From Fusibacter sp. 3D3 (lineage in GTDB: Bacteria; Bacillota; Clostridia; Peptostreptococcales; Acidaminobacteraceae): a stretch of 64,000 bases of DNA. A model generated the notes under the pieces. That model ran no database searches. It was not told where the DNA came from and saw only the letters and a program-made list of their open reading frames with translations. Made by a program: the position numbers and the translations under genes. The stretch is from assembly GCF_001748365.1 (NCBI RefSeq), contig NZ_BDHH01000007.1:1-64000 (forward strand), in the 5' to 3' direction. This document shows, one piece after another, positions 3,797 through 55,591 of the stretch (the stretch's first letter is position 1; each line of letters starts with the position of its first letter).

Positions 3797-3941
3797 ATAT
3801 AACCCTTGAGGAGATGTCCCCCACTTCTCAAAGTGGGGGTTCATATTCCTAATTCATTGGGAGTCCAAACGCCCAATGAATGCAATCCGATAGGATTGTG
3901 CAAGTGTTACGAGGGTAGCGAAGCGGACTGAGTAGACGCTT
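3797..3941 (+). repeat. Structured repeat element, copy A (full)
   Basis: About 145 bases with a strongly folded layout. TAACCCTTG (3800-3808) can pair with CAAGTGTTA (3901-3909, one mismatch) and encloses three hairpins: CCCCCACTT/AAGTGGGGG (3818-3839), ATTCATTGGG/CCCAATGAAT (3852-3881) and CAATCC/GGATTG (3883-3898). A 3' hairpin GAAGCG/CGCTTC (3920-3942) follows. A second full copy is at 55448 and a truncated copy at 24177, both on the same strand. The element lies between converging genes. It has no ORF. It could be a guide-type RNA or the end of an IS200/IS605-like element, or a miniature mobile element; no transposase is in the window. Confidence 0.85.
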
Positions 3942-3944
3942 CGG

Positions 3945-3995
3945 TTAAAAACTTCCATAAAACAACTTATTCAGTTGAATTATGGAAGTTTTTTA
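3945..3995. terminator. Bidirectional terminator between APH gene and lysC
   Basis: AACTTCCATAA (3950-3960) pairs with TTATGGAAGTT (3980-3990). T-runs on both strands suit termination of the minus-strand hom-lysC operon and of any transcript reading out of the repeat element. Confidence 0.8.
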
Positions 3996-4002
3996 TGAAC
4001 AG

Positions 4003-5226
4003 TTAAATGACTTTATTTAACTCGAAAAAATTGTGAATTTCAGATAAAGCTTCAGTTGCTTGTTTTTCATCTATAATACATGAAATTTTAATTTCTGAAG
4101 TGGAGATCATTTCTATGTTAATCCCCAATTGATACAATGCACCGAAGAGACCAGAGGCAATTGTGGCATCAGATGTTATACCAGTACCAACGATTGATAA
4201 TTTAGCGACGTCAGTTTTAATAAGAAGTTCATTTGCCTCTACTTCTTTTATAAAAGCGTCTATAGTGGGTTTGACATGAGCCAGTTCATCCTTTGGGATT
4301 GTAAAAGAAATATCATTGAGGTCGTTATGATTTAAGTTTTGAATAATCATATCGATGTGAACGTTTTGTGCAGCCAATGCTGAAAACATTTTATAAGCTA
4401 TACCAGGTTTGTCAGGGACGCTTGATACGGTGAGTCTTACAATATTGTCATCTAGGGTTACACCTCTAACTTGTGCTTTTTCCATACATTTCACCTCTTT
4501 AATTATAGTGCCGGGGTGGTCAAGCTCAAACGAGGATCTCACCACGAGTTTCATGTTGTTTTTTCTTGCAAGCTCAACTGATCTAGGATGCATGACCTTG
4601 GCACCTAGCTTTGCAAGTTCAAGCATTTCATCATAACTGATAGTTTGTATTAGGCAAGCCTCTTTAACAGATCTGGGATCAGCAGTGTAAATGCCCTTGA
4701 CATCTGTATAAATTTCACACAGCTTTGCATTTAGGGCTACAGCTAAGGCAACTGCAGTTGTATCGGATCCGCCTCTGCCCAAAGTGGTTATATCCCCATT
4801 TTTACTTATGCCTTGAAAGCCAGCAACAATGACAATTTTATCTTCATTAATTTCTGATAGGATTCGATCTGTAATGATTTCGTTAATTTTGGCTTTTGAA
4901 TAATAGGGATCAGTTTGAATGCCACATTGATAACCTGTTAGTGAAATCGCTTTATAGCCCTTTGATTCAATGGCCATAGCCAGTAACGAAATTGAAATTT
5001 GTTCTCCAGTTGAAAGTAACATATCCATTTCTCTTGAAGAGGGCGTAGCCGTGATGCTTTTTGCAAGTTCTATGAGATGATCTGTAGAATCACCCATTGC
5101 AGAGACAACCACTACGGGATTGAAACCTTTCTTTTTTTGTTCAATAATATGATTGGCGACGCGCTGAATGCGCTCTGCATTTGCAACGGAGCTGCCCCCA
5201 TATTTCTGAATGATGATTTGATTCAT
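4003..5226 (-). CDS. lysC: Aspartate kinase
   Basis: A 407-residue monofunctional aspartokinase, which phosphorylates L-aspartate in the first step to lysine, threonine and methionine. The N-terminal KYGGSSVANAERI motif is the classic amino-acid kinase signature and the Asp-binding region GRGGSDTTAVALA is present near residue 150. Two ACT domains fill about residues 265-407, which is normal length for the lysine/threonine-inhibited class. ATG at 5226 has AGAGGTGC before it; an in-frame GTG six bases upstream is less likely. It is the last gene of the minus-strand operon, ten bases after thrB. Confidence 0.93.
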   Translation of the reverse strand: MNQIIIQKYGGSSVANAERIQRVANHIIEQKKKGFNPVVVVSAMGDSTDHLIELAKSITATPSSREMDMLLSTGEQISISLLAMAIESKGYKAISLTGYQCGIQTDPYYSKAKINEIITDRILSEINEDKIVIVAGFQGISKNGDITTLGRGGSDTTAVALAVALNAKLCEIYTDVKGIYTADPRSVKEACLIQTISYDEMLELAKLGAKVMHPRSVELARKNNMKLVVRSSFELDHPGTIIKEVKCMEKAQVRGVTLDDNIVRLTVSSVPDKPGIAYKMFSALAAQNVHIDMIIQNLNHNDLNDISFTIPKDELAHVKPTIDAFIKEVEANELLIKTDVAKLSIVGTGITSDATIASGLFGALYQLGINIEMISTSEIKISCIIDEKQATEALSEIHNFFELNKVI

Positions 5227-5236
5227 AAGCACCTCT

Positions 5237-6145
5237 TTATTCTAGTAATTCGTAAGTTGTACCGTTTTTATTGACGGTTAAAGACTTTAACATCCATGCG
5301 TGATTCAACGTTTTTAAAAATGGATTGAAAATCAAATCAAATTCAGTATCTTCGCATTTCACCAAACCAATAAGAGTAGGTCCAGCACCACTTATAAAGG
5401 AACCAACAACATTGGTTTCTTTAAGTTTTTGCATAATAATATCTGATTCGTGTATAAGTTTAATTCTATACGGCTCGTGAATTTCATCTTTAAGAGAAAA
5501 GCTCAATAGATCATAATTTCTTGTATTGAGCGCATTAATAAGCATGCTTACTCTTGAGATATTGTTAACACATTGAGAAAGAGAATACTCAGTAGGTAAA
5601 ACTTTTCGAGCGTCTCTTGTGCTCACTCTGAAATCTGGTATCAACACTTTAAATTGTATTTCATCTGGGAAATCCACCGTTGAATAGAAAACTTTATGAG
5701 AGTCATGGTCTAGACAAGAAATGACCATATTGCCTAAAATTGTAGGGACTACATTATCTGGATGCCCCTCAATTTCTGTTGCAAGATGAATAATCTCAGG
5801 TGTGCTGAGTTTGAAATCCATAAGGTAGTTAGCGGCAAAGATACCTGCAACGATAGAAGCAGCAGAGCTGCCAAGGCCTCGTGAAATCGGAATCTGGCAT
5901 TCGCCCATAGTGAGGTTGTAACCTGTATCTTCAAAACCATACTTAGACAGGATATTATCAAGTGTGAGTTTTACATAATTATCTATATCTTCAACTTCAA
6001 CTTTTCCATTTTCCCATGAGACTGAGTGCACGTTATCTTTTGTTTTTTCAACTGAAATTGTGTTAAATAAATTCAAAGCCACACCTAGGGTATCGAATCC
6101 AGGTCCCATGTTCGCTGATGTAGCGGGGACTTTAATCTTAATCAT
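5237..6145 (-). CDS. thrB: Homoserine kinase
   Basis: A 302-residue GHMP-family kinase that makes O-phosphohomoserine from homoserine and ATP. The ATP-binding motif ISRGLGSSAASIVAG is near residues 88-102 and the GHMP C-terminal motif SGAGPTLIGL is near 252-261. The start ATG overlaps the end of the thrC remnant by eight bases, and its ribosome binding site GGAGGC sits inside that remnant. O-phosphohomoserine is the substrate of threonine synthase, which is broken here, so a second synthase elsewhere or another use is implied. Confidence 0.93.
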   Translation of the reverse strand: MIKIKVPATSANMGPGFDTLGVALNLFNTISVEKTKDNVHSVSWENGKVEVEDIDNYVKLTLDNILSKYGFEDTGYNLTMGECQIPISRGLGSSAASIVAGIFAANYLMDFKLSTPEIIHLATEIEGHPDNVVPTILGNMVISCLDHDSHKVFYSTVDFPDEIQFKVLIPDFRVSTRDARKVLPTEYSLSQCVNNISRVSMLINALNTRNYDLLSFSLKDEIHEPYRIKLIHESDIIMQKLKETNVVGSFISGAGPTLIGLVKCEDTEFDLIFNPFLKTLNHAWMLKSLTVNKNGTTYELLE

Positions 6146-6425
6146 TCAGTATGCCTCCAATAATCGATTTAAGGTGATCATAGTCGCTATCAACGGCTTT
6201 AGTAACCGCCATGGTCATGCCTCTAGCTTTAAAAGATCCTGTTGGATTAAAACCATCATATTTAAGATAAATTTCAATTCTAGGCATTAGGGTTTCAAGA
6301 TTTTTAGCGCGGATGAGCGGCGTATTGCCTTCATTAAGTGTAATGGCTTCGGTTGACTCTGCCAAAGGCATATATTTTCTATATGGATTAATTAATCCTG
6401 TGTACATCATAATAGTGATCTCCAT
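6138..6425 (-). pseudogene. thrC: Threonine synthase remnant (N-terminal fragment)
   Basis: At most 95 codons, against about 350 in a complete threonine synthase. Residues 7-75 match the start of ThrC: MYTGLINPYRKYMPL, then LNEGNTPLI, then NPTGSFKARGMTMAVTKAV. The PLP lysine of the SFK motif is kept, but the family's usual FKDRGM reads FKARGM. After MAVTKAV the similarity stops and a 17-residue tail leads to a stop overlapping thrB. The catalytic C-terminal three quarters is absent from the window, so it cannot be an active enzyme. The likeliest original start is one of the ATGs at 6407-6410. The reading frame is kept, perhaps because thrB depends on translation across it. Confidence 0.85.
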
Positions 6426-6454
6426 GTTTTTAGTATTTTGTAGTGCTCAAGTTA

Positions 6455-7690
6455 CTATTTATCAAATACAAGAAAGTGTTTATACTTACAATTTGCTTTA
6501 TGAGCAATTTGATTTAATTGTTGAAGCAGGGTTTCTTCATTTTCAGCAACCAATTCTACATAAAGGATGTCTGAATTTGCATCTTTTGAGAGCTTAATCG
6601 CATTTGATGAAAAGCATTCAAATAGGAGCATAGTCAATTCTTGAAGCTTTCCATTTGTTAGTCGAATGACCCATTTTGATTTTTTCGGGTAATATTGATG
6701 AATGTGTACACTATCTTGATAATGATAAGAAGGCTGTATTTTCTTATTTTGAATAATATCGAGCAAATCCCCTAAGATCGCACTAGCCGTGGGGAACTTG
6801 CCAGCACCTTTTCCAGTAAACATGAGTTCACCAACAGCATCACCCTCCAAAATAACGGCATTATACTCATTGTCAATCTTGGCGTACTTTGATTGACTGG
6901 TTACATAAACAGGTCTGACGGTGCCGTAGATGCCATCTCCCATATCTTCTGAAAATGCCATGAGTTTCATTCTATAATTTTCACTGTGTGCATAGTCGAT
7001 ATCTGCTTTAAGAATGTTAGAAATGCCTTCAATCGGCAAGTCCGTCCATTTGATATTTTTTTTGTAACCAATCGAGGAGAGGATGACTAGCTTTCTCATT
7101 GCATCGTAGCCTTCAACATCTGAGGTTGGATCGGATTCGGCAAAACCCATTTCCTGCGCGAGTTCAAGTGCCGTTTCATAAGAAATATCGTCGTTAAACA
7201 TTTTGGTGAGAATATAGTTTGTTGTACCATTGATGACAGCGCTGATGTTCTTTATGGTGTTACCGGCTAAGCATTCTTGAAGTGGCTTTAGAATGGGAAT
7301 ACCACCACCTACACTCGCCTCAAAACTTAAAATGGTGTTATTGAGTTTTGCAAGTTCCAAAAGGGCAGCGCCTTTTTCAGCAATCAAATCTTTATTAGCA
7401 GTAATAACTGGGATGCCTTTTTTTAGAAAGTACTCGAGATAATCATATGCGGGATATATCCCACCAATCGTTTCTATCGCGATGTCAAATTCTTCCTTTA
7501 TGAGATCCTCAAAACTGTTCGTAAAGATATTAAAAGCTTTATGTGTTTTGTACTTATTTAAGCTGTTTACAAGAATTCTTTCAACGCGCACATTTTTTGA
7601 AAAGTTTTCCTGTATACTTTCATTATTTTTTTCTATGAGCTCGTAGACACCAGAACCTACAGTTCCGTATCCAAGCAACGCAATTTTCAT
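6455..7690 (-). CDS. hom: Homoserine dehydrogenase
   Basis: A 411-residue enzyme reducing aspartate semialdehyde to homoserine with NAD(P)H. The Rossmann motif LLGYGTVGSGVYELI is at the N terminus. The catalytic region has ITANKDLIAEKG and EASVGGGIPILKPL, and the conserved GTTNYILTKM is near residue 153. The last 80 residues look like an ACT domain, as in the Bacillus enzyme, and this would give threonine feedback control. It follows the ACT-domain gene by 21 bases and precedes the thrC remnant, so the order is ACT-hom-(thrC)-thrB-lysC. Confidence 0.94.
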   Translation of the reverse strand: MKIALLGYGTVGSGVYELIEKNNESIQENFSKNVRVERILVNSLNKYKTHKAFNIFTNSFEDLIKEEFDIAIETIGGIYPAYDYLEYFLKKGIPVITANKDLIAEKGAALLELAKLNNTILSFEASVGGGIPILKPLQECLAGNTIKNISAVINGTTNYILTKMFNDDISYETALELAQEMGFAESDPTSDVEGYDAMRKLVILSSIGYKKNIKWTDLPIEGISNILKADIDYAHSENYRMKLMAFSEDMGDGIYGTVRPVYVTSQSKYAKIDNEYNAVILEGDAVGELMFTGKGAGKFPTASAILGDLLDIIQNKKIQPSYHYQDSVHIHQYYPKKSKWVIRLTNGKLQELTMLLFECFSSNAIKLSKDANSDILYVELVAENEETLLQQLNQIAHKANCKYKHFLVFDK

Positions 7691-7711
7691 ATAAGAACCC
7701 CCTAGTTCAAG

Positions 7712-8152
7712 TTATTCAATGCCAAGTAAAGAAAATTTGTGAACACCTTCTATATTTTTTAATTCGTTAGAGAGTGTCGTAAATGAGTTGGTCATTTCGG
7801 ATATATCAATAGTAATCGTAACATTGGCCATTAGATCAATGGGACTACTTTGGCTAATGGTCATGATATTGCCATTGTTATGGGCAATGCAATCAAGTAC
7901 TTTGGACAATCGACCTGAATGATGATCTAAATTCATGGAGACAGTGGCCTTTTTTCCAATGACGCCATCGCCTAGTGCAAAGACAAAATCATTGTATTTA
8001 TAAAATGTACTTCTACTGATACCTACTTTTTTTACCGCATCGGAAACTGATGTGGATTTGCCTTCTTTTAAAAGTGTTTTGGCTTCTACAACTTTAATAA
8101 AGACTTCAGGTAGAACATCAATGTGTATGAGTAAGAATTTTCCTTTATCCAT
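7712..8152 (-). CDS. ACT-domain protein (PheB/ThrR-like), putative regulator
   Basis: A 147-residue protein with an N-terminal region containing a helix-turn-helix-like stretch (SVSDAVKKVGISRSTFYKY, about residues 36-54) and a C-terminal ACT domain (about 72-146). This layout is that of the PheB/ThrR family, which in Bacillus-group and clostridial genomes is encoded next to hom and controls threonine or methionine genes. The start at 8152 is set by GGAGGTTAAC; an upstream in-frame extension to 8194 has no good ribosome binding site. It is the first gene of the operon. Regulation by amino-acid binding is inferred from family knowledge. Confidence 0.82.
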   Translation of the reverse strand: MDKGKFLLIHIDVLPEVFIKVVEAKTLLKEGKSTSVSDAVKKVGISRSTFYKYNDFVFALGDGVIGKKATVSMNLDHHSGRLSKVLDCIAHNNGNIMTISQSSPIDLMANVTITIDISEMTNSFTTLSNELKNIEGVHKFSLLGIE

Positions 8153-8209
8153 GTTAACCTCCGTGTATTCTACAGACGGACAATTGTTCGCCAAATGATA
8201 TTAATAAGG

Positions 8210-8238
8210 ATTATAGCACATTAAAATACTGTATACAA
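8210..8238 (-). promoter_or_regulatory. SigA-type promoter of the hom-thrB-lysC operon
   Basis: On the minus strand TTGTAT (8238-8233) and TATAAT (8215-8210) are 17 bases apart. They lie about 60 bases before the start at 8152. Confidence 0.75.
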
Positions 8239-8415
8239 GGCAATTGTTAAATATAATTCATGTTTTTATTTTAGAACATTTAAGGGTGTGTTTTATGAGC
8301 GGTTAAAGCTATGAATTGTTATGTAATAATCTGACGGATTGTGAATTTTGTAGTCCTTTGAGTATAAGCGGGTATATAATTGTTATGAAAAAGCGATTAA
8401 ATTAGGAGGGCTTAT

Positions 8416-8865
8416 ATGCGTTATTTAAAAGATGATTTTGTTTTAAAAATGACCGGAAGTGGACAAATTGATCGAACTGTGCTTATGGAGCAGAATTTTA
8501 TTCTCTATTTTTATCCTAAAGACAATACATCTGGTTGCACTTTAGAAGCACAGGACTTTGCTGATTTATATGATGAGTTTAAAGCATTGGGATATGAAGT
8601 ATATGGGATCAGTAAAGATTCTATGAAGTCTCATGAGCGATTCAAAGAAAAATTCAATTTACCTTTCAACTTAATATCTGATGAAGCAAAAGTACTGCAT
8701 CAATGCTTTGATGTCATCAAAGATAAAAAATTATATGGGAAACTTGTGACTGGAACAGAAAGATCCACTTTTGTCTTTAGAGAAGGGCTTTTATGTATAA
8801 CTGAGTTCAGAGGTGTAAAGGCAAAAGGGCATGCGCGTGCTGTACTGGATCATTTGCAAAAGTAA
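8416..8865 (+). CDS. bcp: Thioredoxin-dependent peroxiredoxin, Bcp/PrxQ type
   Basis: A 149-residue peroxiredoxin that reduces hydroperoxides. The peroxidatic cysteine lies in the motif NTSGCTLEAQDF at about residues 37-48. In many PrxQ proteins a second Cys follows five residues later (GCTxEACxF); here it is Gln, so a one-Cys or distant resolving-Cys mechanism is likely. The other features (FYPKDNT at the front, DEAKVLHQCFDV in the middle, RSTFVF near the end) are normal. An AGGAGGGCTTAT ribosome binding site fits the ATG. A TATAAT-like box lies at 8375 but I see no convincing -35. Confidence 0.9.
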   Translation: MRYLKDDFVLKMTGSGQIDRTVLMEQNFILYFYPKDNTSGCTLEAQDFADLYDEFKALGYEVYGISKDSMKSHERFKEKFNLPFNLISDEAKVLHQCFDVIKDKKLYGKLVTGTERSTFVFREGLLCITEFRGVKAKGHARAVLDHLQK

Positions 8866-8872
8866 TACTGCC

Positions 8873-8901
8873 TTGACATTCTATAAAACCACCCGTATAA
8901 T
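8873..8901 (+). promoter_or_regulatory. Promoter of the cobalamin operon
   Basis: A consensus SigA promoter, TTGACA at 8873-8878 and TATAAT at 8896-8901, spaced by 17. Transcription should start near 8908, just before the riboswitch. Confidence 0.85.
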
Positions 8902-8921
8902 AGAGAAGAAAATTGAATAGT

Positions 8922-9080
8922 TTAATCAAGGTGCTTACTCTTTTAGCTAAGAGGGAAAGAGGTTGAAATCCTCTGCAGCCCCCGCTACTGTATATAGTGA
9001 TGAAATCCAAGAATCCACTGAGAAATTGGGAAGGATGGAAAGTAAAGTGATCTATGAGCCAGGAAACCTGCCTTGATTTA
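8922..9080 (+). ncRNA. Cobalamin (adenosylcobalamin) riboswitch
   Basis: The conserved elements are in order: GGTGC near 8930, GAGGGAA near 8956, AATCCTCTGCAGCCCCCGCTACTGT near 8973-8997, and the B12 box AGCCAGGAAACCTGCC at 9057-9072. Closing stem P1 is AATCAAGG (8924-8931) with CCTTGATT (9071-9078). It is followed by a terminator hairpin at 9133-9163, so ligand binding probably stops transcription before cbiP. Confidence 0.95.
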
Positions 9081-9132
9081 GGATGAATCTACTTCGGAGG
9101 GAAGTCGGGTGATTTGAATTGATTGTATATTC

Positions 9133-9163
9133 AACACACGCATTTCTGCGTGTGTTTTTTTTT
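9133..9163 (+). terminator. Riboswitch-controlled terminator before cbiP
   Basis: AACACACGCA (9133-9142) pairs with TGCGTGTGTT (9147-9156) and is followed by a long T-run. It sits between the cobalamin riboswitch and the cbiP start at 9185, as the expression platform. Confidence 0.88.
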
Positions 9164-9184
9164 GAAGATAAAAGTGAGGATGTT

Positions 9185-10696
9185 ATGGCAAAAAAACTAA
9201 TGTTTCAGGGCACGGGTTCAACTGTTGGGAAAAGCCTTATTGTAGCAGCAATGTGCAGAATTTTAAACGATGAAGGCTATCGTGTAGCACCGTTTAAATC
9301 TCAAAACATGGCCTTAAATTCTTTCATTACAAAAGATGGAAAAGAAATGGGGCGTGCTCAGGTGGTTCAAGCAGAGGCCGCTAGAATTGAACCAGATGTT
9401 GCGATGAATCCAATTTTATTAAAACCGACAAGTTATGTGGGCTCGCAAATTATCTTAAATGGTCAAGTGTTTAAGAACATGAAAGCCAGTGAATATTTTT
9501 CAAAGAAGGATTTTTTGGTGCCTCATATAAGAACCGCCTTTAATAGCCTCAACCAAAACTATGATGTTATTGTTATAGAAGGTGCAGGTTCTCCGGCTGA
9601 AATCAATCTCAGAAGCCGAGATATTGTCAATATGGGACTCGCAGAAATTGTGGATACGGATGTCGTATTGATTGGCGATGTGGATAAAGGGGGGGTGTTT
9701 GCCTCTATATACGGGACTTATATGTTGCTGTCTGAATCGGAAAGGGCGCGTATTAAAGGTTTTGTCATCAATAAATTTAGAGGTGATGTGGCACTTTTAG
9801 TGCCTGGCGTCAAAATGATGGAAGAAAAGATCGGTATTCCTTGTGTAGGCATTATTCCTTTTATTGAGCAACTTAAAATTGATGATGAAGATAGTGTGTC
9901 TGAACGTTTGTATATGAAATCAGATAAGCCTATAAAAGTAGGGGTTATTAGATTGCCCTATATGTCAAACTTCAGCGATTTTACCGTGTTCGATATGGAA
10001 TCCGATGTGAGTCTTGAATATGTCACTACGGAAAGTGAAATAGAAAGTTGTGATCTTTTAATTATTCCCGGCAGTAAAAATACCATCTTTGACATGCAAT
10101 TTATTATTAAGCATAAGATTAATCAGGCGATATACAGATTCCACAAAGCTGAAAAACCAATTTTTGGTATTTGCGGCGGTTATCAAATCCTCGGCAACAG
10201 TATTTCCGATCCAGATAGTGTGGAGTCTATCGATCAAATGATTAGTGGTCTTGGATTATTAAATGTAGAGACCGTTATGGCAACAGAAAAAACAACTGTT
10301 CAAAGTGAGGCAACCATTCAAAATAATTACTTTGGTCTTATTACTGAGAAAATGCAAATTAAAGGTTACGAAATACACATGGGAGAAACCCTTTTTAATA
10401 GCGTTGATGTAGTGCCTTTTGCGCTGAATTCTAAGGGAAATTTCGATGGCGCAATAGATGAATCCGGTCGAGTCATGGGCACTTATTTTCATGGCATATT
10501 TGACAATGACCATTTCAGGAATGCAATATTAGATAAAATTAGGGCTCAAAAAGGGATTACATCTGATGACAGGGAAGATTCGTTTGAAGTTCTCAAAGAC
10601 AGAGAGTATGACCGATTAGCTGAGCACGTTAAAAAATATATGGATATGACTTTGATTCGAAAATTTTTAGAGGAATCGAGGGTGTTAGATTGTTAG
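9185..10696 (+). CDS. cbiP: Cobyric acid synthase (glutamine-hydrolysing)
   Basis: A 503-residue enzyme that amidates four carboxylates of adenosylcobyrinic acid a,c-diamide (CobQ/CbiP). The N-terminal ATP-binding domain has FQGTGSTVGKS (residues 8-18). The C-terminal class I glutaminase-like domain has the nucleophile in FGICGGYQILG and the catalytic His in TYFHGIFDN. The frame is open from 9119, but that would start inside the terminator hairpin; the ATG at 9185 with GTGAGG ahead is the right start. First gene of the riboswitch-controlled operon. Its stop overlaps the start of cbiB. Confidence 0.94.
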   Translation: MAKKLMFQGTGSTVGKSLIVAAMCRILNDEGYRVAPFKSQNMALNSFITKDGKEMGRAQVVQAEAARIEPDVAMNPILLKPTSYVGSQIILNGQVFKNMKASEYFSKKDFLVPHIRTAFNSLNQNYDVIVIEGAGSPAEINLRSRDIVNMGLAEIVDTDVVLIGDVDKGGVFASIYGTYMLLSESERARIKGFVINKFRGDVALLVPGVKMMEEKIGIPCVGIIPFIEQLKIDDEDSVSERLYMKSDKPIKVGVIRLPYMSNFSDFTVFDMESDVSLEYVTTESEIESCDLLIIPGSKNTIFDMQFIIKHKINQAIYRFHKAEKPIFGICGGYQILGNSISDPDSVESIDQMISGLGLLNVETVMATEKTTVQSEATIQNNYFGLITEKMQIKGYEIHMGETLFNSVDVVPFALNSKGNFDGAIDESGRVMGTYFHGIFDNDHFRNAILDKIRAQKGITSDDREDSFEVLKDREYDRLAEHVKKYMDMTLIRKFLEESRVLDC

Positions 10697-11649
10697 TCAA
10701 TATCGGTATCGCAGTCCTTTTGGACTGGTTAGTAGGTGATCCTCCTAATTGGCCGCATCCAGTTAGGTTTATAGGGTGGTTAATCCGTAATTTTGAGAAG
10801 CTCATTAGACGCTTTTCAAAAAACCTCTATGTGGGTGGATTTATATTAATGATTTTAACAGTATCAACTGTTTTATCGTTATATATGTTTGCTGCATCAG
10901 TTTGCCACCCTTATTTTTTTAGAATTTTAAATATCTATTTATTATATACTTGTCTTGCTTGTAAATGCCTTAAAGATGAAGCTGTAAAAGTGAAGCAACT
11001 AATCCAATCCAACCAGATTGAAGCATCGAGAAAAGAATTGAGTTATTTAGTGGGAAGGGATACCGATACATTAACAGAAGAACAAGTATTGAGAGGGATT
11101 ATTGAGACGGTATCTGAAAATACTGTGGATGGCATTTTAGCACCTCTTTTTTATATGCTTGTGGGCAGTTTGTTTACTTTTAATGGGATTTCAATGGCGG
11201 TGGCATTTGCCCTTATATACAAAAGTGTAAATACGCTTGACTCTATGGTAGGGTATATGCAAGCGCCTTATAAAGAGATTGGTATGATCTCTGCTAAAAC
11301 GGATGATCTATTAAATTTTATGCCTGCACGATTGGGCGCTGTCTTTATGCTTGCGGCAGGTGCTGTTTTAAAGTTGAATGCAAAAAAAGGTTTTATCATC
11401 ATGGTGAGAGATCATCAAAATCATAAAAGTCCCAATTGTGGGTATCCAGAATCGGTTACAGCGGGATTACTGGGGATTCAACTGGGAGGAACAAATATCT
11501 ATTTTGGAGAACAAGTCTACAAACCGACGATTGGCGATAGATTAAGAGCTTTTGAAGTTGCTGATATTGATAAATCGGTGCAAGTGATGTATGTTTCAGA
11601 GATTATATTATTGCTATTAGGACTTCTTTTGGTGAATAGCATCTCATAG
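10690..11649 (+). CDS. cbiB: Adenosylcobinamide-phosphate synthase
   Basis: A 319-residue membrane enzyme that joins aminopropanol phosphate to cobyric acid (CbiB; CobD in Pseudomonas naming). The N terminus LLDWLVGDPPNWPHPVRFIG is the family signature. Other conserved blocks are GRDTDTLTEEQVLRGIIETV and the KSVNTLDSMVGY region, and several hydrophobic segments are present. It uses TTG as start codon at 10690, overlapping cbiP by seven bases, with GAGGG ahead. A tight overlap of this sort favours translational coupling. Confidence 0.93.
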   Translation: MLVNIGIAVLLDWLVGDPPNWPHPVRFIGWLIRNFEKLIRRFSKNLYVGGFILMILTVSTVLSLYMFAASVCHPYFFRILNIYLLYTCLACKCLKDEAVKVKQLIQSNQIEASRKELSYLVGRDTDTLTEEQVLRGIIETVSENTVDGILAPLFYMLVGSLFTFNGISMAVAFALIYKSVNTLDSMVGYMQAPYKEIGMISAKTDDLLNFMPARLGAVFMLAAGAVLKLNAKKGFIIMVRDHQNHKSPNCGYPESVTAGLLGIQLGGTNIYFGEQVYKPTIGDRLRAFEVADIDKSVQVMYVSEIILLLLGLLLVNSIS

Positions 11650-11704
11650 AATAATCAAGGATCGCACTGTTAATGATGTATATTGCTTAAAAGTAGGAGG
11701 CAAA

Positions 11705-24144: not shown

Positions 24145-24176
24145 ATATAATCCCTCCTATTGTTTTTGGTTATACT

Positions 24177-24250
24177 AAACGCCCACTGAATGCAATCCGA
24201 TAGGATTGTGCAAGGTTACAAAGGTAGCGAAGCGGACTGAGTATACGCTT
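24177..24250 (+). repeat. Structured repeat element, copy B (5' truncated)
   Basis: The 3' half of the repeat seen at 3797 and 55448: it starts in the loop of the second hairpin and then shares GCAATCCGATAGGATTGTGC, the P1 3' strand CAAGGTTAC, and the conserved AGCGAAGCGGACTGAGTATACGCTT. The left half, with the CCCCCACTT hairpin, is missing, so the closing helix cannot form. It lies upstream of the minus-strand GAF gene, in its leader region but in antisense orientation. Confidence 0.85.
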
Positions 24251-24277
24251 AAAAAAACTAATGAATATCTTTAATCC

Positions 24278-45535: not shown

Positions 45536-45712
45536 AGTGTTCTGGGGTGTTGGTCACCTTATAAATTCAACCACTGTTTAATCGTAGGGAGAACGTGTTC
45601 TACTGCGTATGACGCGCTACAATTTTGGTAGAAGTCAGAAACAGAAGATAGTCCACCCACCTAGTTGGGGTGTGGTGTGAGATTTATCGGGTGACGGCAT
45701 TCTGGGCAGTAT
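45536..45712 (+). ncRNA. ssrS: 6S RNA
   Basis: A long, nearly unbranched RNA of about 175 nt. The terminal helix CTGGGGTGTT (45542-45551) pairs with GGCATTCTGG (45696-45705), with G-T pairs, and TCACC with GGTGA continues it. This closes exactly as in Escherichia coli 6S RNA (CTGAGATGTT ... GGCATCTCGG). A further stem ATAAAT...ACCAC / GTGGT...ATTTAT leads to a central bubble region. It has its own SigA promoter and no ORF. 6S RNA mimics an open promoter and binds RNA polymerase. The 3' end is approximate. Confidence 0.75.
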
Positions 45713-45782: not shown

Positions 45783-45795
45783 CTATGCATTTTTT

Positions 45796-46377: not shown

Positions 46378-46387
46378 GACAGACCTC

Positions 46388-47389: not shown

Positions 47390-47628
47390 ATATCCTCCAT
47401 TGAATAGCAAATTATATATCATTTTATCACAATTTTTTATAAAAGTTCAATGAATCCATAAAAATTAGTTTACCTAAGTTCTATTATTCTGTAAAATAGA
47501 ATATATGCAAGAATGTGTTAAAATCTGGTTGGTGACTTTATTGATATAACATAGATATCACAAAAATCAGTTTTTAAACAACTTTTATGTTTAACGATAA
47601 TGAGATAAAAAATGGAGGCCTATTGGGA

Positions 47629-48054: not shown

Positions 48055-48118
48055 AGTACGCGATGCTTTACTGCTTTTATCAGTGGGTGACGGCATTATA
48101 TAATGGGGGCGTAATTAT

Positions 48119-51100
48119 TTGAAAGTTATAAACAACCGATATCACGTCTTGGAAACGTTATCAAGAGAAAGCAGTGTTGTTGAATATTTGGTTGAAGATA
48201 CGAAAAAAAATCATCAAATTAAACGCATTCGGATATTTGATACAGAAATATCAAATTATGAGTTTATGAAATCTATGGAGGAAAATTTTGTAGATATATC
48301 CACATATATACACGATCAAATTTTAACGGCTTATGAATTTAAACCCATCTATACGATAAATGGAAGTAAGGTAACGCGTAAGCAGTTTTTTTACACTTAC
48401 GAGCATTACGATGAAAATTTAACGGTACCTTATTTTGAACTCAATAAATCAGAAATTAATAGTGTGATCGTGCAGCTGTGTAAAGCGATAAGATTTTTAC
48501 ATTTCAGAGGTATAATTTATAAATATCTCAATTTCAATGCGATAGTACTTTTAAGAGAGAACGGACAAATAAAACTTAAACTCAAAGATATAGCCAATAA
48601 TTATATTAATGACTATTTCTTTAAGTTAGATCATGAAAGATATCAACAATTTATTGCACCGGAGATCTTATGGGGTGAAGAAGTTGACAATCATGCTGAT
48701 ATCTATTCATTAGGCGTTATGTTCTATTATTTGTATTATAGAGTGGATTTTACGTTGAAATCACTTCAGAGTTTGTCTAAAAATGTGAACAACACAGATA
48801 TTCATAAGTTTATTTTAAAGGCATCAAATCATATTAAAGATGAAAGACATGATCATATACAAGCGTTTATTGATGAATTGACTAAATTGATTTGGATTGA
48901 AGTTGAAAAAGATGATATTAAATTCTATGATCGGATTCATGAGAAAACGATAATTGTGGGTAGAGATGCCATCATAACCGAATGTAAAGAAATCATATTT
49001 GATAAAATGAAGAAAATCGTAGGTTTAAATGGCATCTATATTCAAGGGGAAAATGGCATTGGCAAATCACGTGTGCTCAAGGAACTTGAATATACGGCCA
49101 AATTCAATCGAATTGCCTATGTGACGATTGATGCAATGAAATCTGAAGAGGACTCTTTTTATGCAATCAAAGAGATTATTTCCTTTATTGCGACTCAAGA
49201 TGATGTTTCACCGTTGCTCATACAAAAATATGGGCAAGAGCTTGCGAAAATATTGCCAGAACTGACTTCTAAATGGAATTTAAAAGAAATGAAACCGTTT
49301 AATTTAGAAGCTCAAAAGATGAGACTTCTTAACAGAGCTTTCAATTTCTTTGTAGAATACAGCAACAATAAATATATGATTTTATTGGTCGATGATGAAG
49401 AATATATTCATCCTGATGAAAGGTATTTTTTTGACCAATTGGTTCATCATAAAGGCCATGCGAATTTTATGCTGATCTTCACAGGTGTGGATCAAGATAG
49501 ACCTTATCAGATGTTTCCTGATACCATTCGGCCTGTAAAATTACCGTTTTTAAATTTAGAAGAAACGGGTAAAATTGTTCAGAAATCTCTTGGCATCAGC
49601 AAGATTCCTTATCGGTTTACACATCGAATTATGATAGAGTCTATGGGGAAACCAAACAGTACGAAAAGACTTGTCAAGAAATTGTGGCTTGAAAAAGTGA
49701 TCTTTTTTGATCAAGAACATTTACAGTGGAATTTGGATCAAGTCGACGATGGTTATAAATTTGAATATGCAGAAGAAAATGATTTGGAAATAATAAAAAT
49801 GATTGAGGATATTGTTCCTAAGCATATTGAAATTTTAAAAAAAATAGCTGTTTTAAAAGGCGCATTTAATCTAAATGTACTTCTGAGCTATGCGGAGATA
49901 GACGAGGAGCAAGCTTACTATTTTATTTTCGAGATGGAGTCTAAAAAGATTCTTAACAAACGTATAAGTGATGTTGAGTATGTTTTTGGATTTTATAAAA
50001 ATGAGGTTAAAAAATATTTTGTGGATCTATTATCAGTAGAAGAAGTGAAGTCTCTATCACAAAAGGCAGCCTCTATATATGAGCATCGGTTTAAAGTTTA
50101 TGATGAGATCAATGAAACTTTGATTGATTATTTGATCGCATCGGAGAATTTCGTCGAGGCAGCTCAGTATTCAGCTCTTTTTTCAAAGTATTATATTGAA
50201 AAATCTAATAGCCATAAAGGGATTGATTTGCTTGAGCAGGCCAGTCAAATATACGATCATTTATATGATGTGAGCAATATTATAAAAACATCTAAAAAGC
50301 TGATCAAGAATTATATTAGTATTGGGAAATTAGATAAAGCGTACGAAAAAATCTTATTTTTAATTGAGTTGACTGAAGCGGATTATCCAGAGGATCATAT
50401 TGATGCCCAACTTGAACTGGCAGATATCTATTACTACAAGTACGATATTAATAAAGCAACGGATCAGATAGCGTTTTACTTCGATCAATCCCAGCAACTT
50501 GACTATCTAGAAGGTGAATTTAAATCGGCTCAACTCTTATGTCGATGTTTTGCAGAAAAAGGGGATTTAGATAAAGTTTTTAAACTTATTGATTCTTATT
50601 TAGCGAAAGCGAAAGCCATAAATCATCGTTATTATACGGCTGTGTTTTTAAGTGAACTTGGACGTTACAATCATTTCATGAATCGATTTGATGAAAGTCT
50701 TGAAGCTTTCAATAATGCACTTGATATCTTTAATGAAATTGAAGATGAAGAGCACATCATTAAGATTTATAATAACTTTGGTGTAATCTACTTAGATGAA
50801 TTGGGAGATTACATTGTTGCAAGAGAATATTTTAGAAAGGCATACAATAAAGCCAATGCACGAAATCACTATGTTTCAACACCAATACATCTCAATAATC
50901 TAGGGGAGACCTATAAAATTGAAGGCAAGTTTCAAACGGCCATAAAGTATTTTGAAGAGTCATATCTTTTAGCTGAAAATGTGGGCGATAAGAATATGGT
51001 TATTTTATCATTGCTCAATTTGTGCTATGTTTCACTTCTGATAGAGCATTATGGTAAAACGCATACTTTGATTAATAGACTTGAGCATGAAATTAGTGCG

Positions 51101-53470
51101 ATAAAAAATAGAGAATTTGATAAATTTGATTATTTCATGCTTCACTTTGAATACTTTATTACGATGAATAGTGTGATGAAAGTCGAAAAATGGCGTTATG
51201 ATTTTGATGCAGATGAGATTAAGGATGACTATAGACGTTTTAGGATAAAAGTCATTGATCTCATTATAAAATATCGAAAAAGTGCCCTTATTATTTCGAG
51301 CAAGCAAGTGCCCTTTGACGATATTAAGGCATTGAGCTCGACTGTAAAAAACCCAACTGAAGCAATGCTCGTTAGAAATTTTCTTTTAGATATTATGATT
51401 GATTTTATTGATTATGCTGATTTTATTGAAGTTAAAAAATTGATTAAATTGGATGATCAACTTGTTGCGCTTTATAATACAAAGCATGTTCGGTTGAAAA
51501 GAGCTTTTATAGATGCGTGTCGAGGAGCAGGTAGCTTTCAATGTGTAGACGAAATGATTCCTCTGATCAAAGAAGAATCGCAAGAATTACTTTGGAGAGC
51601 CTACAAGTTTTTAGGAGATGATGCGTATCATGCGAATCATCAGTATAATGCCCTTAAATTTTATTTAATGTCATTAGATATCATCGCAGATTTATCCATA
51701 GAGATTGCTCAAGAATATAAAGAAACCTATATTTTATATGATGATTCTAAAATGACCCTTAAAAATAGAATCAATAAAATCATCAAAAATTTTCTAAACT
51801 TTGAGAATACGTCTGGTCATCAGATCTATTTTGAAGAACGCATAGATACAGTTGATGATTACTTTGATCTAAATCATTTTAATTTGCTTTATCAAAATAA
51901 AAGTTTTGTGAAATCGGTCTATGAGCATTATAAATTTAGTGCCGTCGCTTCTTTTCAAACGCCCACGGATCTCATTAAAAGCCTTGGCAAAGATGACCGA
52001 GAAAATCTTCAGATGATTTTAAGGTACCTCATTCATATGACAATTGCCGAACGCGGCATGATTTACATGTTGGATGTTAACGATAATATAGATGAAATCA
52101 TAAAAACATCAGATGATGTTTTAGGGTATGATATCCTCAAGTTAATCAATAGTATTGGAAATGATTTAGAGGGTGTCTATATATCAAAATTAGATGCGGA
52201 TACGAACGTTCAGATTCTTTCAGATGAACAGAAAGGCATTATCTTTTTTCCGATCTATGAATCTGTAAATGAGAGTGCGAAACTTGAAAAGCGTCGAGAA
52301 GATCTGCTCATTGTAAGGAAAAGAGTCGTTGGATATGTTTTTCTGGATACCAATAATGTGATCAATCGCTTTAACCCACAATCTTTTAATCAAAGCAAAT
52401 CCTTTATGAATTTAATCTATCTCATGATGGACAATTACAATTTAAAATTAATTTCATCCGTTGATAAACTCACAGGCGTTCAACTCAGAAAAGCAATTGA
52501 GCTTGCTTTTACAAGAGAACTCAATCTTTCGAGGCAAAACAACACGTGCCTATCGGTTATTATGCTTGATATTGATAAATTTAAAAACGTCAATGACACT
52601 TATGGGCACCGTAAAGGAGATGAAATTCTTTCGAAGATTGGAGAGTTGTTAAATGCTTCTATTCGAAATACGGATTATGTTGGACGTTATGGCGGTGAGG
52701 AGTTCGTAATCATCTTACCGGAGACCAATGTGGTTGATGGCTTAAAAGTGGCTGAAAAGATTCGATCTAAAGTGGCACATCAGAAACTTTTAGGGGAGGA
52801 AATGCCACTCACAGTGAGCCTTGGTGTATCCACCTATCCAGATGATGGCGTCAACGAAGAAGAACTCGTGGAGAAAGCCGATCAGGCGCTATATTACTCT
52901 AAAAATAATGGCCGTAATCAATCCAATAGTTGGCATGAGAAACTTGTTAAAGCAGGCCACAGATACGATAAACTGGCTGGAATTCTAACGGGTAATATTT
53001 CTGCGGATACGCGAAATGTGCAAGCCTTAACGGATATACTGGCCCAATTGGAAAATTCAAAAAGTGCTGAAGATCGCATTAAAGACACTTTTATCACACT
53101 TCTTGATATTACAGAAGCAGAAGAAATTTGTTTTATAAAATATGACGAAAATTGGACCATTAAAGAAGTGATCAGTAAAAAGAAAGGTCATGATATACTG
53201 ACCTCAGATATCTATATTAATCAAAGGCTTCTTGATCAATTTCAGAACACAACAGAAAGTCAGTATTTTATTGATTGGGAAGAAAGTGTATCTTACGATA
53301 AGATGACCCATATTCCTAATTGGAAGTCGTACATTGTAATGAGCTATAATGAACTTGGGAAAAAAGGAATCCTTTCAATTTCTGTACCGATTCATGAAAA
53401 GGAACTTGATTTTAGTAATTATAACTTTGTAGAAACTTTAAAGTTAGTCATAAGTTATATATTATTTTAA
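48119..53470 (+). CDS. Giant pseudokinase-ATPase-TPR-GAF-GGDEF signalling protein
   Basis: A 1783-residue multidomain protein. Residues 1-260 have a protein-kinase fold, but the catalytic loop reads IIYKYLNFNAIVLL in place of HRDLKPEN and the DFG site reads KDIA (Asp157), so it is probably a pseudokinase. Residues 270-560 form an AAA/STAND-type ATPase: Walker A GENGIGKS (310-317) and Walker B MILLVDDEEY (420-429). Residues about 640-1010 hold TPR-like repeats. A GAF-like domain lies about 1250-1440, then GGDEF (about 1445-1610) with the active GGEEF at 1525 and RNTD giving an I-site. A second GAF-like domain ends the protein. No membrane helix. Start TTG at 48119. Confidence 0.85.
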   Translation: MKVINNRYHVLETLSRESSVVEYLVEDTKKNHQIKRIRIFDTEISNYEFMKSMEENFVDISTYIHDQILTAYEFKPIYTINGSKVTRKQFFYTYEHYDENLTVPYFELNKSEINSVIVQLCKAIRFLHFRGIIYKYLNFNAIVLLRENGQIKLKLKDIANNYINDYFFKLDHERYQQFIAPEILWGEEVDNHADIYSLGVMFYYLYYRVDFTLKSLQSLSKNVNNTDIHKFILKASNHIKDERHDHIQAFIDELTKLIWIEVEKDDIKFYDRIHEKTIIVGRDAIITECKEIIFDKMKKIVGLNGIYIQGENGIGKSRVLKELEYTAKFNRIAYVTIDAMKSEEDSFYAIKEIISFIATQDDVSPLLIQKYGQELAKILPELTSKWNLKEMKPFNLEAQKMRLLNRAFNFFVEYSNNKYMILLVDDEEYIHPDERYFFDQLVHHKGHANFMLIFTGVDQDRPYQMFPDTIRPVKLPFLNLEETGKIVQKSLGISKIPYRFTHRIMIESMGKPNSTKRLVKKLWLEKVIFFDQEHLQWNLDQVDDGYKFEYAEENDLEIIKMIEDIVPKHIEILKKIAVLKGAFNLNVLLSYAEIDEEQAYYFIFEMESKKILNKRISDVEYVFGFYKNEVKKYFVDLLSVEEVKSLSQKAASIYEHRFKVYDEINETLIDYLIASENFVEAAQYSALFSKYYIEKSNSHKGIDLLEQASQIYDHLYDVSNIIKTSKKLIKNYISIGKLDKAYEKILFLIELTEADYPEDHIDAQLELADIYYYKYDINKATDQIAFYFDQSQQLDYLEGEFKSAQLLCRCFAEKGDLDKVFKLIDSYLAKAKAINHRYYTAVFLSELGRYNHFMNRFDESLEAFNNALDIFNEIEDEEHIIKIYNNFGVIYLDELGDYIVAREYFRKAYNKANARNHYVSTPIHLNNLGETYKIEGKFQTAIKYFEESYLLAENVGDKNMVILSLLNLCYVSLLIEHYGKTHTLINRLEHEISAIKNREFDKFDYFMLHFEYFITMNSVMKVEKWRYDFDADEIKDDYRRFRIKVIDLIIKYRKSALIISSKQVPFDDIKALSSTVKNPTEAMLVRNFLLDIMIDFIDYADFIEVKKLIKLDDQLVALYNTKHVRLKRAFIDACRGAGSFQCVDEMIPLIKEESQELLWRAYKFLGDDAYHANHQYNALKFYLMSLDIIADLSIEIAQEYKETYILYDDSKMTLKNRINKIIKNFLNFENTSGHQIYFEERIDTVDDYFDLNHFNLLYQNKSFVKSVYEHYKFSAVASFQTPTDLIKSLGKDDRENLQMILRYLIHMTIAERGMIYMLDVNDNIDEIIKTSDDVLGYDILKLINSIGNDLEGVYISKLDADTNVQILSDEQKGIIFFPIYESVNESAKLEKRREDLLIVRKRVVGYVFLDTNNVINRFNPQSFNQSKSFMNLIYLMMDNYNLKLISSVDKLTGVQLRKAIELAFTRELNLSRQNNTCLSVIMLDIDKFKNVNDTYGHRKGDEILSKIGELLNASIRNTDYVGRYGGEEFVIILPETNVVDGLKVAEKIRSKVAHQKLLGEEMPLTVSLGVSTYPDDGVNEEELVEKADQALYYSKNNGRNQSNSWHEKLVKAGHRYDKLAGILTGNISADTRNVQALTDILAQLENSKSAEDRIKDTFITLLDITEAEEICFIKYDENWTIKEVISKKKGHDILTSDIYINQRLLDQFQNTTESQYFIDWEESVSYDKMTHIPNWKSYIVMSYNELGKKGILSISVPIHEKELDFSNYNFVETLKLVISYILF

Positions 53471-53476
53471 CATTTA

Positions 53477-53505
53477 TTGCATTTTAGACAGATAGTTACT
53501 ATACT
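53477..53505 (+). promoter_or_regulatory. Promoter of ygiQ-like gene
   Basis: TTGCAT at 53477-53482 and TATACT at 53500-53505 with a 17-base spacer. It directly follows the giant gene's stop. Confidence 0.7.
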
Positions 53506-53544
53506 GATTTTGTGTGTAGTCACTTTTTATGAAAAGAGGAAATA

Positions 53545-55440
53545 ATGATTTTAAATGATTTTTTACCGGTCAATAAAGCGGATATGGCTAAGCTTGATTG
53601 GGACTATTTAGACTTTGTATTGGTATCTGGAGATGCCTATGTAGACCATCCGAGTTTTGGCCCCATAGTCATTGCAAGAGTTTTACTGGATGCTGGATTT
53701 CGCGTGGGTATAATCGCACAGCCTGACTGGAATGATCCTAGTAGCATTGAAGTTTTAGGAGAGCCGAGACTGGGCTTTTTAGTATCCGCAGGGAATATGG
53801 ACTCTATGGTGAACCATTACTATGTTTCAAGACGACATAGGGATACAGATAATTATTCTGAGGGGGGTGTCATGGGGAAGAGACCTGATCGTGCAACGCT
53901 GGTCTACACCAATCTGATTCGGAAGAAATATAGAAATAAACCGATTATTTTAGGCGGTATTGAAGCATCCCTTAGGCGGTTTGCACATTATGATTATTGG
54001 GAAGATTCTGTAAGGCGATCCATATTATTTGACAGTTCAGCAGATTTGCTGATCTATGGTATGGGCGAAAATCAAGTGGTTGAGATTGCAGAGTATCTCA
54101 ATAATGGCATTGAGATTCAGTATATTCAACATGTTCCTGGAACGTGCTATATGACATCATCACTTGATAATTTAGATCAATATATAGAAATACCTTCATA
54201 CGAAAGTGTTAAAGCCAATAAAGTTAAGTACGCTCAGGCTTTTAAAGTTCAATACGATGAACAAGATCCCATTAGAGGCAAAACTCTAGTTCAGAAGCAC
54301 AATGGTGTTTATTTGGTGCAAAACCCGCCTACTATGCCCCTTGAAAGAGACCGTCTGGATTGGGTCTTTAATCTCGGGTATAGGAGACAATACCATCCTA
54401 TGTATGAAGCGGGTGGAGGCATTCCTGCAATCAAAGAAGTTAAAATGGGCATCATCAGCGAAAGAGGTTGTTTTGGGAATTGCTCCTTTTGTGCACTTGC
54501 GTTTCATCAAGGCCGCATTATCACTTCGCGCTCACATGAGTCGATAATAGAGGAAGCGAAGATCATTCAGTTGGATGCGGATTATAAAGGTTATATCAAC
54601 GACGTCGGAGGTCCGACAGCAAACTTTAGACATCCTGCCTGTAAAAAACAACTCAAGCACGGCGCTTGTAAACATAAGCAGTGTTTATACCCCGAACCTT
54701 GTGAACATCTGGATACCGATCATAGTGATTATATAGAGCTTCTCACGAAATTGAGAAACCTAGAAGGCGTTAAAAAAGTGTTTATTAGAAGCGGTATTCG
54801 GTACGATTACCTCATGTATGATCAAGATGATGCCTTTTTTTATGACTTGTGTCAGTATCATGTGAGTGGGCAGTTAAAAGTAGCACCAGAACATATTGAT
54901 GAAACAGTTCTAGATTATATGGGAAAACCAAGTGGTAAACTCTATGGTCAGTTCGTTAAAAAATTTGATCAAATCAACCATGAACTTCAAAAAGAGCAAT
55001 ACATCATTCCTTATCTGATGAGTTCACATCCGGGAAGCACCATTCAATCTGCAATAAAATTAGCTGAATACCTCAGAGATATAAATTACACGCCAGAACA
55101 AGTCCAAGACTTTTATCCCACACCTGGGACCATGAGTACTTGCATGTATTACACTGAAATAGATCCCAGAACAATGAAGGCTGTATTTATCCCTAAAAGT
55201 AACAAGGAGAAGGCTATGCAGCGTGCGCTCCTCCAATATAAAAATCCAAGAAATTACGATTTGGTATATGAGGCATTAATTCTTGCCAACAGACAAGATT
55301 TGATCGGATTTCATGCAAAAGCACTCATAAAATCACGGTCAGAGCATTCGGGATATACGGGCTCTAAAAAAGGAAAACCGAGGGTATCCAATTCACAAAC
55401 GTCTATAAAATCATCTGAGAAGACTAAAAAAAGACGGTAA
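53545..55440 (+). CDS. YgiQ family radical SAM protein
   Basis: A 631-residue radical SAM enzyme of the YgiQ group. The [4Fe-4S] cluster motif is CFGNCSFC (CxxxCxxC) in [18 protein letters not shown], about residues 312-329. The N-terminal region carries the cobalamin-binding-like layout of the family, and an additional Cys-rich stretch [21 protein letters not shown] (about residues 371-391) may bind a second cluster. The C terminus is basic and low in complexity. Reaction unknown. An AAGAGGAA ribosome binding site is present. It is transcribed alone. Confidence 0.9.
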
Positions 55441-55447
55441 TTCGATA

Positions 55448-55591
55448 ATATAACCCTTGAGGAGATGTCCCCCACTTCTTAAAGTGGGGGGCATATTCCT
55501 AATCCAGTGGGAGTATAAACTCCCACTGGATGCAATCCGGTAGGATTGCGCAAGGGTTACGAAGGTAGCGGAGCGGACTGAGTATACGCTT
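55448..55591 (+). repeat. Structured repeat element, copy C (full)
   Basis: TAACCCTTG (55451-55459) pairs perfectly with CAAGGGTTA near 55551-55559 and encloses three hairpins: CCCCCACTT/AAGTGGGGG (55469-55490), TCCAGTGGGAGT/ACTCCCACTGGA (55503-55530) and CAATCC/GGATTG. It has the same order as copy A at 3797. Compared with copy A, the second hairpin has changed two base pairs on both sides, T-A to C-G and T-A to G-C. It lies between ygiQ and hutH, same strand, without any ORF. The conserved end is AGCGGAGCGGACTGAGTATACGCTT. Confidence 0.88.

Follow-up and report, generated by a model that had tools for sequence, protein, structure and literature searches.

What are the structured repeats of about 145 bp that recur in this part of the Fusibacter sp. 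3D3 genome, and how did they come to be there? The first-pass annotation saw in them a mobile structured RNA, either akin to the right-end or guide RNAs of TnpB and IscB elements or a miniature element mobilised in trans. The two full copies (3797-3941 and 55448-55591) and the 5'-truncated one (24177-24250) that it placed in the window, the whole 64-kb stretch of DNA analysed here, all intergenic and on the + strand, were re-found between open reading frames (Table 1). On the evidence below, the repeat appears to be a new family of mobile repeats and not a guide RNA that targets genes.

Table 1. Repeat copies in the 64-kb window, with their targets and 3' core modules (R1, covariance model; L031, locus of copy A)
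Feature	Position	Strand	Basis
Target TATAA of copy A (flank, outside the element)	3798..3802	+	Flank frequencies over 59 sites; sequence
Copy A, full length, no array	3803..3945	+	R1 match 3798-3945, 165 bits; 97.1% to consensus (L031)
3' core module, copy A	3914..3934	+	Pattern match, 0 mismatches
Copy B, 5'-truncated, keeping the 3' half of P3, all of P4 and the core, and part of the end	24177..24250	+	Sequence; R1 match 24146-24254, 55.2 bits
3' core module, copy B	24223..24243	+	Pattern match, 0 mismatches
Target TATAA of copy C	55449..55453	+	G002 and G001 empty at the orthologous site; diverged flanks
Copy C, full length, perfect P1	55454..55595	+	R1 match 55449-55595, 170 bits; both congeners lack it at the orthologous site
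3' core module, copy C	55564..55584	+	Pattern match, 0 mismatches

The genome of this salt-flat bacterium (G000; 57 contigs, 5,111,250 bp) holds at least 131 loci of the repeat, which is also carried by F. ferrireducens (G002); a search of a third congener (G001, about 90% complete) gave no match. By blastn, all 40 copies scored among 174 candidates are full-length at 90-100% identity, and a pattern for the 3' core has 189 matches, against none for the reversed control. A covariance model built from the copies, as had been proposed, was run over the genome and its relatives; it gave at least 147 matches (150 scored among 1446 candidates). Weak model matches in three further genomes, G087, G128 and G174 (best of each at E 2e-5 to 4e-7; 10 candidates scored per genome under stricter filters), resemble the family in their hairpins and TATAA but differ in the 3' part, and were kept apart from it. 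An IMG/VR contig was discounted as a separate occurrence, being identical to a stretch of the 3D3 genome over 3,145 bases. The search for an autonomous long copy turned on five 5' ends that, on comparison by eye, have no place among the model matches, and none was accepted: one is clearly truncated at its 3' end, the core of another has decayed, and three break off shortly after the pattern and could be chance matches.

The element runs from CCCTTGAGG to GCTTTGAT, about 143 bp, and lies directly 3' of TATAA. Over the 59 sites at which both ends could be aligned, the left flank reads T.97 A.88 T.95 A.98 A.90, four of the 59 being second tandem copies preceded by the end of the first; TTTAA stands in place of the target at two, and the right flank has no base preference. 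The edges had been described as sharp, and the ends are indeed shared, but the ATATAA offered as the 5' edge is the insertion target, and the element therefore starts with CCCTTGAGG. The 3' edge had also been misplaced: the true one lies about 5 nt further right, with GCTTTGAT in most copies, whereas copy A finishes in CGCTTCGGT where the consensus has CGCTTTGAT. Two comparisons with empty sites are available. Inside an IS605 copy the empty form reads TTGTATAA/CTTTT and the filled form TTGTATAA-element-CTTTT, one base being ambiguous, and the IS605 copy of that comparison is missing a further stretch of about 170 bp nearby. The place of copy C is empty in both G002, which reads TATGG, and G001, the flanks having diverged. 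Target-site duplication was found in neither comparison. Full copies in tandem abut end to start, as in TTTGAT/CCCTTG, with small variants elsewhere. A fixed left target without duplication is the mark of single-strand (HUH/Y1) transposition; a MITE of a DDE transposon was rejected on the grounds that the ends, CCCTTGAGG and GCTTTGAT, do not form inverted repeats and that duplication is absent at the two sites.

Copies A and C each fold far better than their shuffles (z -5.62 and -9.83; 0 of 200 shuffles as good), and the truncated copy B does not do so significantly (z -1.58; 18 of 200 as good). The alignment used to build the model and to count pairs (A1) comprises 32 rows chosen from 43 non-redundant among 56 distinct copies, with its structure taken from the fold of a single row, copy C. 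In it, 25 of 52 pairs show changes on both sides, against 6.3 +/- 1.7 in shuffles (0 of 500 as high), and 92.0% of cells are paired, where a slid structure reaches at most 45.0%. These counts bear out the conserved multi-helix fold with compensatory changes that had been read from the window's copies, and the long-range helix, P1, is as then described, perfect in copy C and with one mismatch in copy A. P1 joins the TAA of the target to a TTA inside the 3' core in 30-31 of the 32 rows; a compensated change at these letters (TGA/TCA) occurs at one locus only, and in a diverged array P1 has changed yet remains complementary. With columns fixed as G-T excluded, G-T cells outnumber A-C cells by 131 to 58, and distinct variant types by 31 to 20, a modest strand-specific excess. 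A hairpin GTTAC/GTAGC placed inside the core by RNAalifold was dropped because 35 of 176 modules break one of its pairs.

The 30-nt 3' core is nearly invariant in both species and within arrays, its modules having been selected by similarity to it (accepted at up to 7 mismatches in 30). GTAG is present in 138 of 176 core modules in 3D3 and 34 of 38 in G002, the others having mostly GCAG or GAAG. Direct tandem arrays of the core occupy 17 of 130 loci in 3D3, 14 of them with a period of at most 77 bp, and 9 of the 13 loci examined in F. ferrireducens. Regular spacing suggested a CRISPR array, a reading rejected because the linkers are alike within an array and are not unique spacers: their similarity ratio is 0.86 within arrays (55 pairs) and 0.45 between arrays (136 pairs). 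The 3D3 genome paper counts 10 CRISPR repeats, confirmed and questionable together. Three tandem loci are orthologous between the two species, which differ in their linkers at each of the three and in the number of units at two. At the other extreme, the smallest copy retains 53 bp of the element, and several copies that have lost hairpins P2-P4 keep TATAA, both strands of P1 and the core. Among the shortest, one deletion junction is common to three loci, as might be expected if such copies move, but short homology could produce it repeatedly.

The count of neighbouring genes covers 129 of the 131 clustered loci, of which 117 do not overlap an open reading frame. The gene upstream runs in the element's sense at 80 of these 117, both neighbours do so at 69 loci and both oppose it at 19, and at 13 loci the stop codon of the upstream gene falls within TATAA. 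Of 129 copies, 90 lie on the G-rich strand, the template of lagging-strand synthesis; where the neighbours disagree in direction the split is 14 to 13, and strand bias is thus confounded with gene direction.

Together these data make it probable that the repeats are non-autonomous elements of the REP/BIME/BOX type, resident in two Fusibacter species and mobilised, in the form of folded single-stranded DNA, by a trans-acting HUH (Y1-type) enzyme. The TATAA flanks, the two empty sites, the abutting tandems, the covariation, the compensated P1 of the diverged array and the strand bias all argue for this reading, and the earlier suggestion of a structured miniature element mobilised in trans gains support from the shared ends, the empty sites, the covariation and the identity of at least 96% to the consensus in 35 of 59 copies compared. 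Doubt about a Y1 enzyme in trans arises because no enzyme is tied to the element, the empty-site comparisons number only two, strand is confounded and the G-T excess is modest. In such a scheme, the core would hold both cut sites in lagging-strand template DNA, acting as a "guide" that reads the left site via P1 and the right via CGAAGCG/CGCTTTG; the enzyme would cut 3' of TATAA and 3' of TTTGAT, join the ends and reinsert the element. Arrays may then grow with age, since they are commoner in diverged copies.

Candidate enzymes were sought through their ends, and none matches the element among IS605 and two IS200 groups (left ends), two of these (right ends) and the flanks of the intact RAYT, which is bordered by GTACCACGTAC palindromes and not by the repeat. 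No Y1 match was obtained in G174, one of the genomes with weak relatives of the element. A RAYT-like gene is common to both carriers, and G001 (about 90% complete) gave no match for its protein; that protein has neither the first HUH histidine nor the Y---NP motif and was rejected as the mobiliser for want of catalytic motifs. A bolder version, which must be judged quite unlikely, is a new type of single-strand element whose 30-nt core would recognise both cut sites by base pairing, the host target among them via P1, and which would be served by a novel enzyme; the apparently non-catalytic RAYT-like protein would bind core arrays, the old ones forming a domesticated DNA- or RNA-binding system.

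The alternative that deserves most weight, although on balance it is unlikely, is a putative functional 3'-UTR or small structured RNA, kept since its transcript fold or its core binds something, with spread being secondary. The 69 to 19 excess of neighbours in the element's sense, the stop codons within TATAA, the almost invariant core in both species with its three orthologous tandem loci, and the compensated P1 would all be expected of it; yet a recent burst at unrelated sites, with ends and target fixed, needs mobility, the orthologous tandem loci differ in linkers and unit numbers, and the third congener (about 90% complete) gave no match. Derivation from the resident IS605 (tnpA and tnpB), with movement by its TnpA, is improbable. 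An element does lie within 1.5 kb of 7 of 13 IS605 copies, where 1.4 are expected and 0 of 5000 draws were as high under a random model that ignores the avoidance of genes by both; in two of those seven it is in or at the IS itself, and the two targets are one letter apart, TTTAA standing at two of the 59 element sites. However, all 12 IS605 left ends read show TTTAA, the right end GTATGTCAC is unlike the element's GCTTTGAT, queries with either IS605 end (LE/RE) match no element at E <= 1e-8, and G002 has the element and no Y1 match of the 133-aa IS605 type.

A role as guide (omega-like) RNA of TnpB or IscB, in which the 3' flank would be the guide and TATAA the TAM, is very improbable, and the kinship first proposed with the right-end or guide RNAs of such elements gains no support. 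TnpB systems are laid out as target, element and flank, as is the repeat, and the 3D3 genome has 13 TnpB-domain matches; but Rfam, searched over the whole window at the gathering threshold and over 3700-4010 at E <= 5, gave only sub-threshold, chance-level matches on the repeat, there is no similarity to the right ends of the tnpB elements (IS605), which have a different right end and target, and each array repeats one linker, unlike a set of guides. Copying by reverse transcriptase, as in a group II intron-like retroelement, is just as hard to credit: 5'-truncated copies such as B, base pairing with the target and a reverse transcriptase fragment in the genome that is group II-like by eye speak for it, but a clear 3'-truncated copy exists too (L292), the 5' end is not the GUGYG motif of such retroelements, and reverse transcriptase matches number two in G000, one in G002 and one in G001, the last without an element match.

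The elements have partial parallels among known repeats; no title dealing with the family appears among the matches listed in one literature collection. Like REP, BIME and REPIN sequences with their RAYT (TnpAREP), they are folded, high-copy intergenic repeats, mostly behind genes and in clusters (PMC3733652, PMC6006769, PMC8266576), and in most of them, though not strictly, GTAG stands on the 5' side of a possible hairpin foot. REPs, however, are single hairpins of roughly 20-65 nt, whereas the Fusibacter element has about 143 bp and four to five helices, its arrays are direct, and the intact RAYT has other palindromes beside it. BOX of Streptococcus pneumoniae is a scattered composite repeat with a strong predicted RNA fold, made of outer modules and a number of tandem inner modules that varies between strains; terminal inverted repeats connect it to an IS (PMC3049150). 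The Fusibacter element shares the variable number of tandem modules, but it lacks inverted repeats at its ends, has a fixed left target (TATAA) and repeats its 3' core as the module. A short fixed target with insertion on its 3' side, a putative internal guide that would read the target and the proposed use of the lagging-strand template recall the ends of IS200/IS605 elements such as IS608 and ISDra2 (PMC6006769); unlike in these, a single core would have to act for both ends, with three hairpins in between, the element contains no gene, and no matching autonomous copy was found.

Most copies lie behind a gene of the same sense, and resident copies would therefore give its transcript a folded 3' tail, like that proposed for REP and BOX repeats. 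The family unites repeat types usually kept apart, with modular tandems as in BOX and, at a fixed left target, insertion that leaves no duplication. Should P1 indeed recognise the target, a three-base change in the core would be expected to shift the insertion site, and the short copies and old arrays form a natural deletion series in which what is needed for movement may be told from what is retained after insertion.

The three copies in the window lie between genes on the plus strand, as the first-pass annotation had it and as the sequence and an ORF map bear out. Copies A and C fold more stably than all 200 shuffles, and the 5'-truncated copy B does not. Compensatory base changes that keep the fold, as that annotation claimed, are evident in an alignment of 32 copies carrying the fold of copy C as its structure: 25 of the 52 pairs in helices P1-P5 have changed on both sides, against 6.3 +/- 1.7 in shuffles, 0/500 of which reach 25. 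In this alignment 92.0% of helix cells are paired (78.8% in P5, the weakest helix), as against 29.4-45.0% after shifting the partner by 1-3 columns; the comparison is tilted towards the structure, because this was taken from the fold of one row. Unguided RNAalifold yields P3, P4, two pairs elsewhere and a hairpin in the core, but neither P1 nor P2. In the array with the most changed P1 seen (L223), the two strands of P1 have many substitutions and still pair (CATGACTCTAGC with GCTAGAGTCA), and this altered helix is unchanged in five of six units. Over 89 distinct rows the helix cells hold 262 G-T and 58 A-C oppositions. Half of the G-T cells sit in columns where G-T is fixed; outside these the counts are 131 against 58, and the distinct variant types number 31 against 20, which is modest evidence that folding takes place on the strand given here.

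Locations of element copies and other features
Feature	Location	Fold z	Shuffles as good	Remark
Copy A	window 3797-3941	-5.62	0/200	
Copy B	window 24177-24250	-1.58	18/200	5'-truncated
Copy C	window 55448-55591	-9.83	0/200	
Cobalamin riboswitch	window 8912-9089			ordinary Rfam match
6S RNA	window 45536-45712			ordinary Rfam match
L223, six-unit array	G000:C1:331399-331870			most changed P1 seen; behind gene end resembling atpC (by eye)
L155, intact RAYT locus	G000 (Fusibacter sp. 3D3):C9:25900-29300			
L156, RAYT-like gene	G000:C4:152500-155900			beside ABC transporter genes
L186, RAYT-like gene	G002 (F. ferrireducens):C40			beside ABC transporter genes; then gene resembling thioredoxin reductase (by eye)

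The element follows a fixed target. Over 59 distinct sites, four of them second copies of tandems, the left flank reads T.97 A.88 T.95 A.98 A.90, and in 35 copies at >=96% identity T1.0 A.94 T1.0 A1.0 A.97; the right flank shows no base preference over the 59 sites. At 13 loci the upstream ORF has its stop codon in the target, as the TAA. Intact IS605 copies provide an empty site, TTGTATAA/CTTTTGTT, which in one IS605 copy is filled, TTGTATAA(CCCTTGAGG...GCTTTGAT)CTTTTGTT, with one base ambiguous; this pair shows no target duplication, and the filled copy also lacks about 170 bp nearby. Copy C is missing from the orthologous place in both F. ferrireducens and the other congener, G001, here too with no target duplication, although the flanks have diverged (F. 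ferrireducens has TATGG). Tandem full copies join end to start; the junction is TTTGAT/CCCTTG in L165 and varies slightly in L060, L162 and L163.

In the Fusibacter sp. 3D3 assembly (57 contigs, 5,111,250 bases, the figures printed in an excerpt of PMC5525254), blastn gave 174 candidates, and the 40 that were scored were all full length at 90-100% identity. The covariance-model search proposed in the first-pass annotation was run on genome and order with a model built from 32 copies; in the genome, where 150 of 1446 candidates were scored, it gave at least 147 matches at E <= 0.01, merging into at least 131 loci. Patterns of the core (<=2 mismatches) and the 5' end matched 103 + 86 and 44 + 50 times, and reversed control patterns of both gave no match in this genome. 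By blastn the carriers were two of 41 genomes, this one and F. ferrireducens Q10-2, with no match in G001 (90% complete). Across the order (297 genomes, 10 candidates scored in each, E <= 1e-4) at least five genomes matched the model, G087, G128 and G174, which belong to other families, weakly; the related-looking elements of these three (L130, L131, L132, L134, L135, L137, L138, L141) have TATAA, very similar P2- and P3-like hairpins and a different 3' part, ending in TTTAA in several. A single exact version of the core pattern, run against an 84,980-species collection, was found only in F. ferrireducens; this is a collection from which the records of the window's genome are perhaps absent. 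L177 (IMGVR_UViG_2751185701_000001), a contig from a viral collection that is identical to part of this genome, carries two copies about 500 bp apart, with phage-like genes around (by eye).

Among 129 loci placed against mechanical ORFs of >=80 aa, 12 overlap an ORF. At the other 117 both neighbours have the sense of the element in 69, both oppose it in 19, 27 are mixed and two open; the upstream ORF has the same sense in 80 and the opposite in 35. The element strand is the G-rich strand (lagging-strand template) at 90/129 loci (p 8e-6), and in mixed neighbourhoods the count is 14 against 13, so that effects of replication and transcription on the bias are inseparable.

Short copies (58-78 bp including the target) have lost hairpins; TATAA, the core and the two strands of P1 are still there, and most also have the end. 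There is hardly any variation in the core, GGTTACGAAGGNAGCGNAGCGGACTGAGTA, over 176 modules in Fusibacter sp. 3D3 and 38 in F. ferrireducens, modules chosen by similarity to the core itself. Direct arrays in which the core recurs every 33-143 bp, with 2-6 units each, occur in 17 of 130 loci read in the former (period <=77 bp in 14) and nine of 13 examined in the latter. Linker similarity ratios are 0.86 within and 0.45 between arrays. Because many units carry P4 together with the core, they seem to have arisen as elements shortened to differing extents at the 5' end were duplicated in tandem. Three tandem loci are orthologous in the two genomes, with the same left junction and, in one, the same right junction; none of the three has the same linkers in both genomes, and two differ in the number of units.

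As to what moves the element, Y1 matches number 26 in Fusibacter sp. 3D3, four in F. ferrireducens and one in G001, with none in G174 (96% complete). That it is an IS605 derivative moved by the IS605 TnpA seems improbable. An element lies within 1.5 kb of seven of 13 IS605 copies, against 1.4 expected at random, and this proximity may mean that IS605 assists in trans or that both settle in the same permissive regions; IS605 itself (tnpA+tnpB) is inserted after TTTAA at 12/12 left ends read and has the right end GTATGTCAC. The left ends of two IS200-type groups also differ from those of the element. An intact RAYT in Fusibacter sp. 3D3 (NF047646, 81.3 bits, cut-off 80) has on either side palindromes that share the core GTACCACGTAC and form a second, separate REP-like family; three such cores occur in 568,716 other bases read. 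Another protein of RAYT-like type, encoded in both genomes among the same neighbouring genes (by eye), has DQYH at the HUH motif, the first HUH histidine missing, and is without Y---NP.

The element has a fixed target on its left, defined ends and a strand that folds, and it leaves no target duplication; these are marks of single-strand HUH transposition as described for IS608, ISDra2 and REP systems in excerpts of PMC6006769 and PMC8266576. Its modular arrays resemble BOX repeats (PMC3049150). Neither definition fits in full: no matching transposase element was found among those whose ends were read, GTAG is not strict and the element is not a short palindrome. Our main explanation, which we hold to be probable, is accordingly a repeat, of unproven membership, that works like a Y1-mobilised one.
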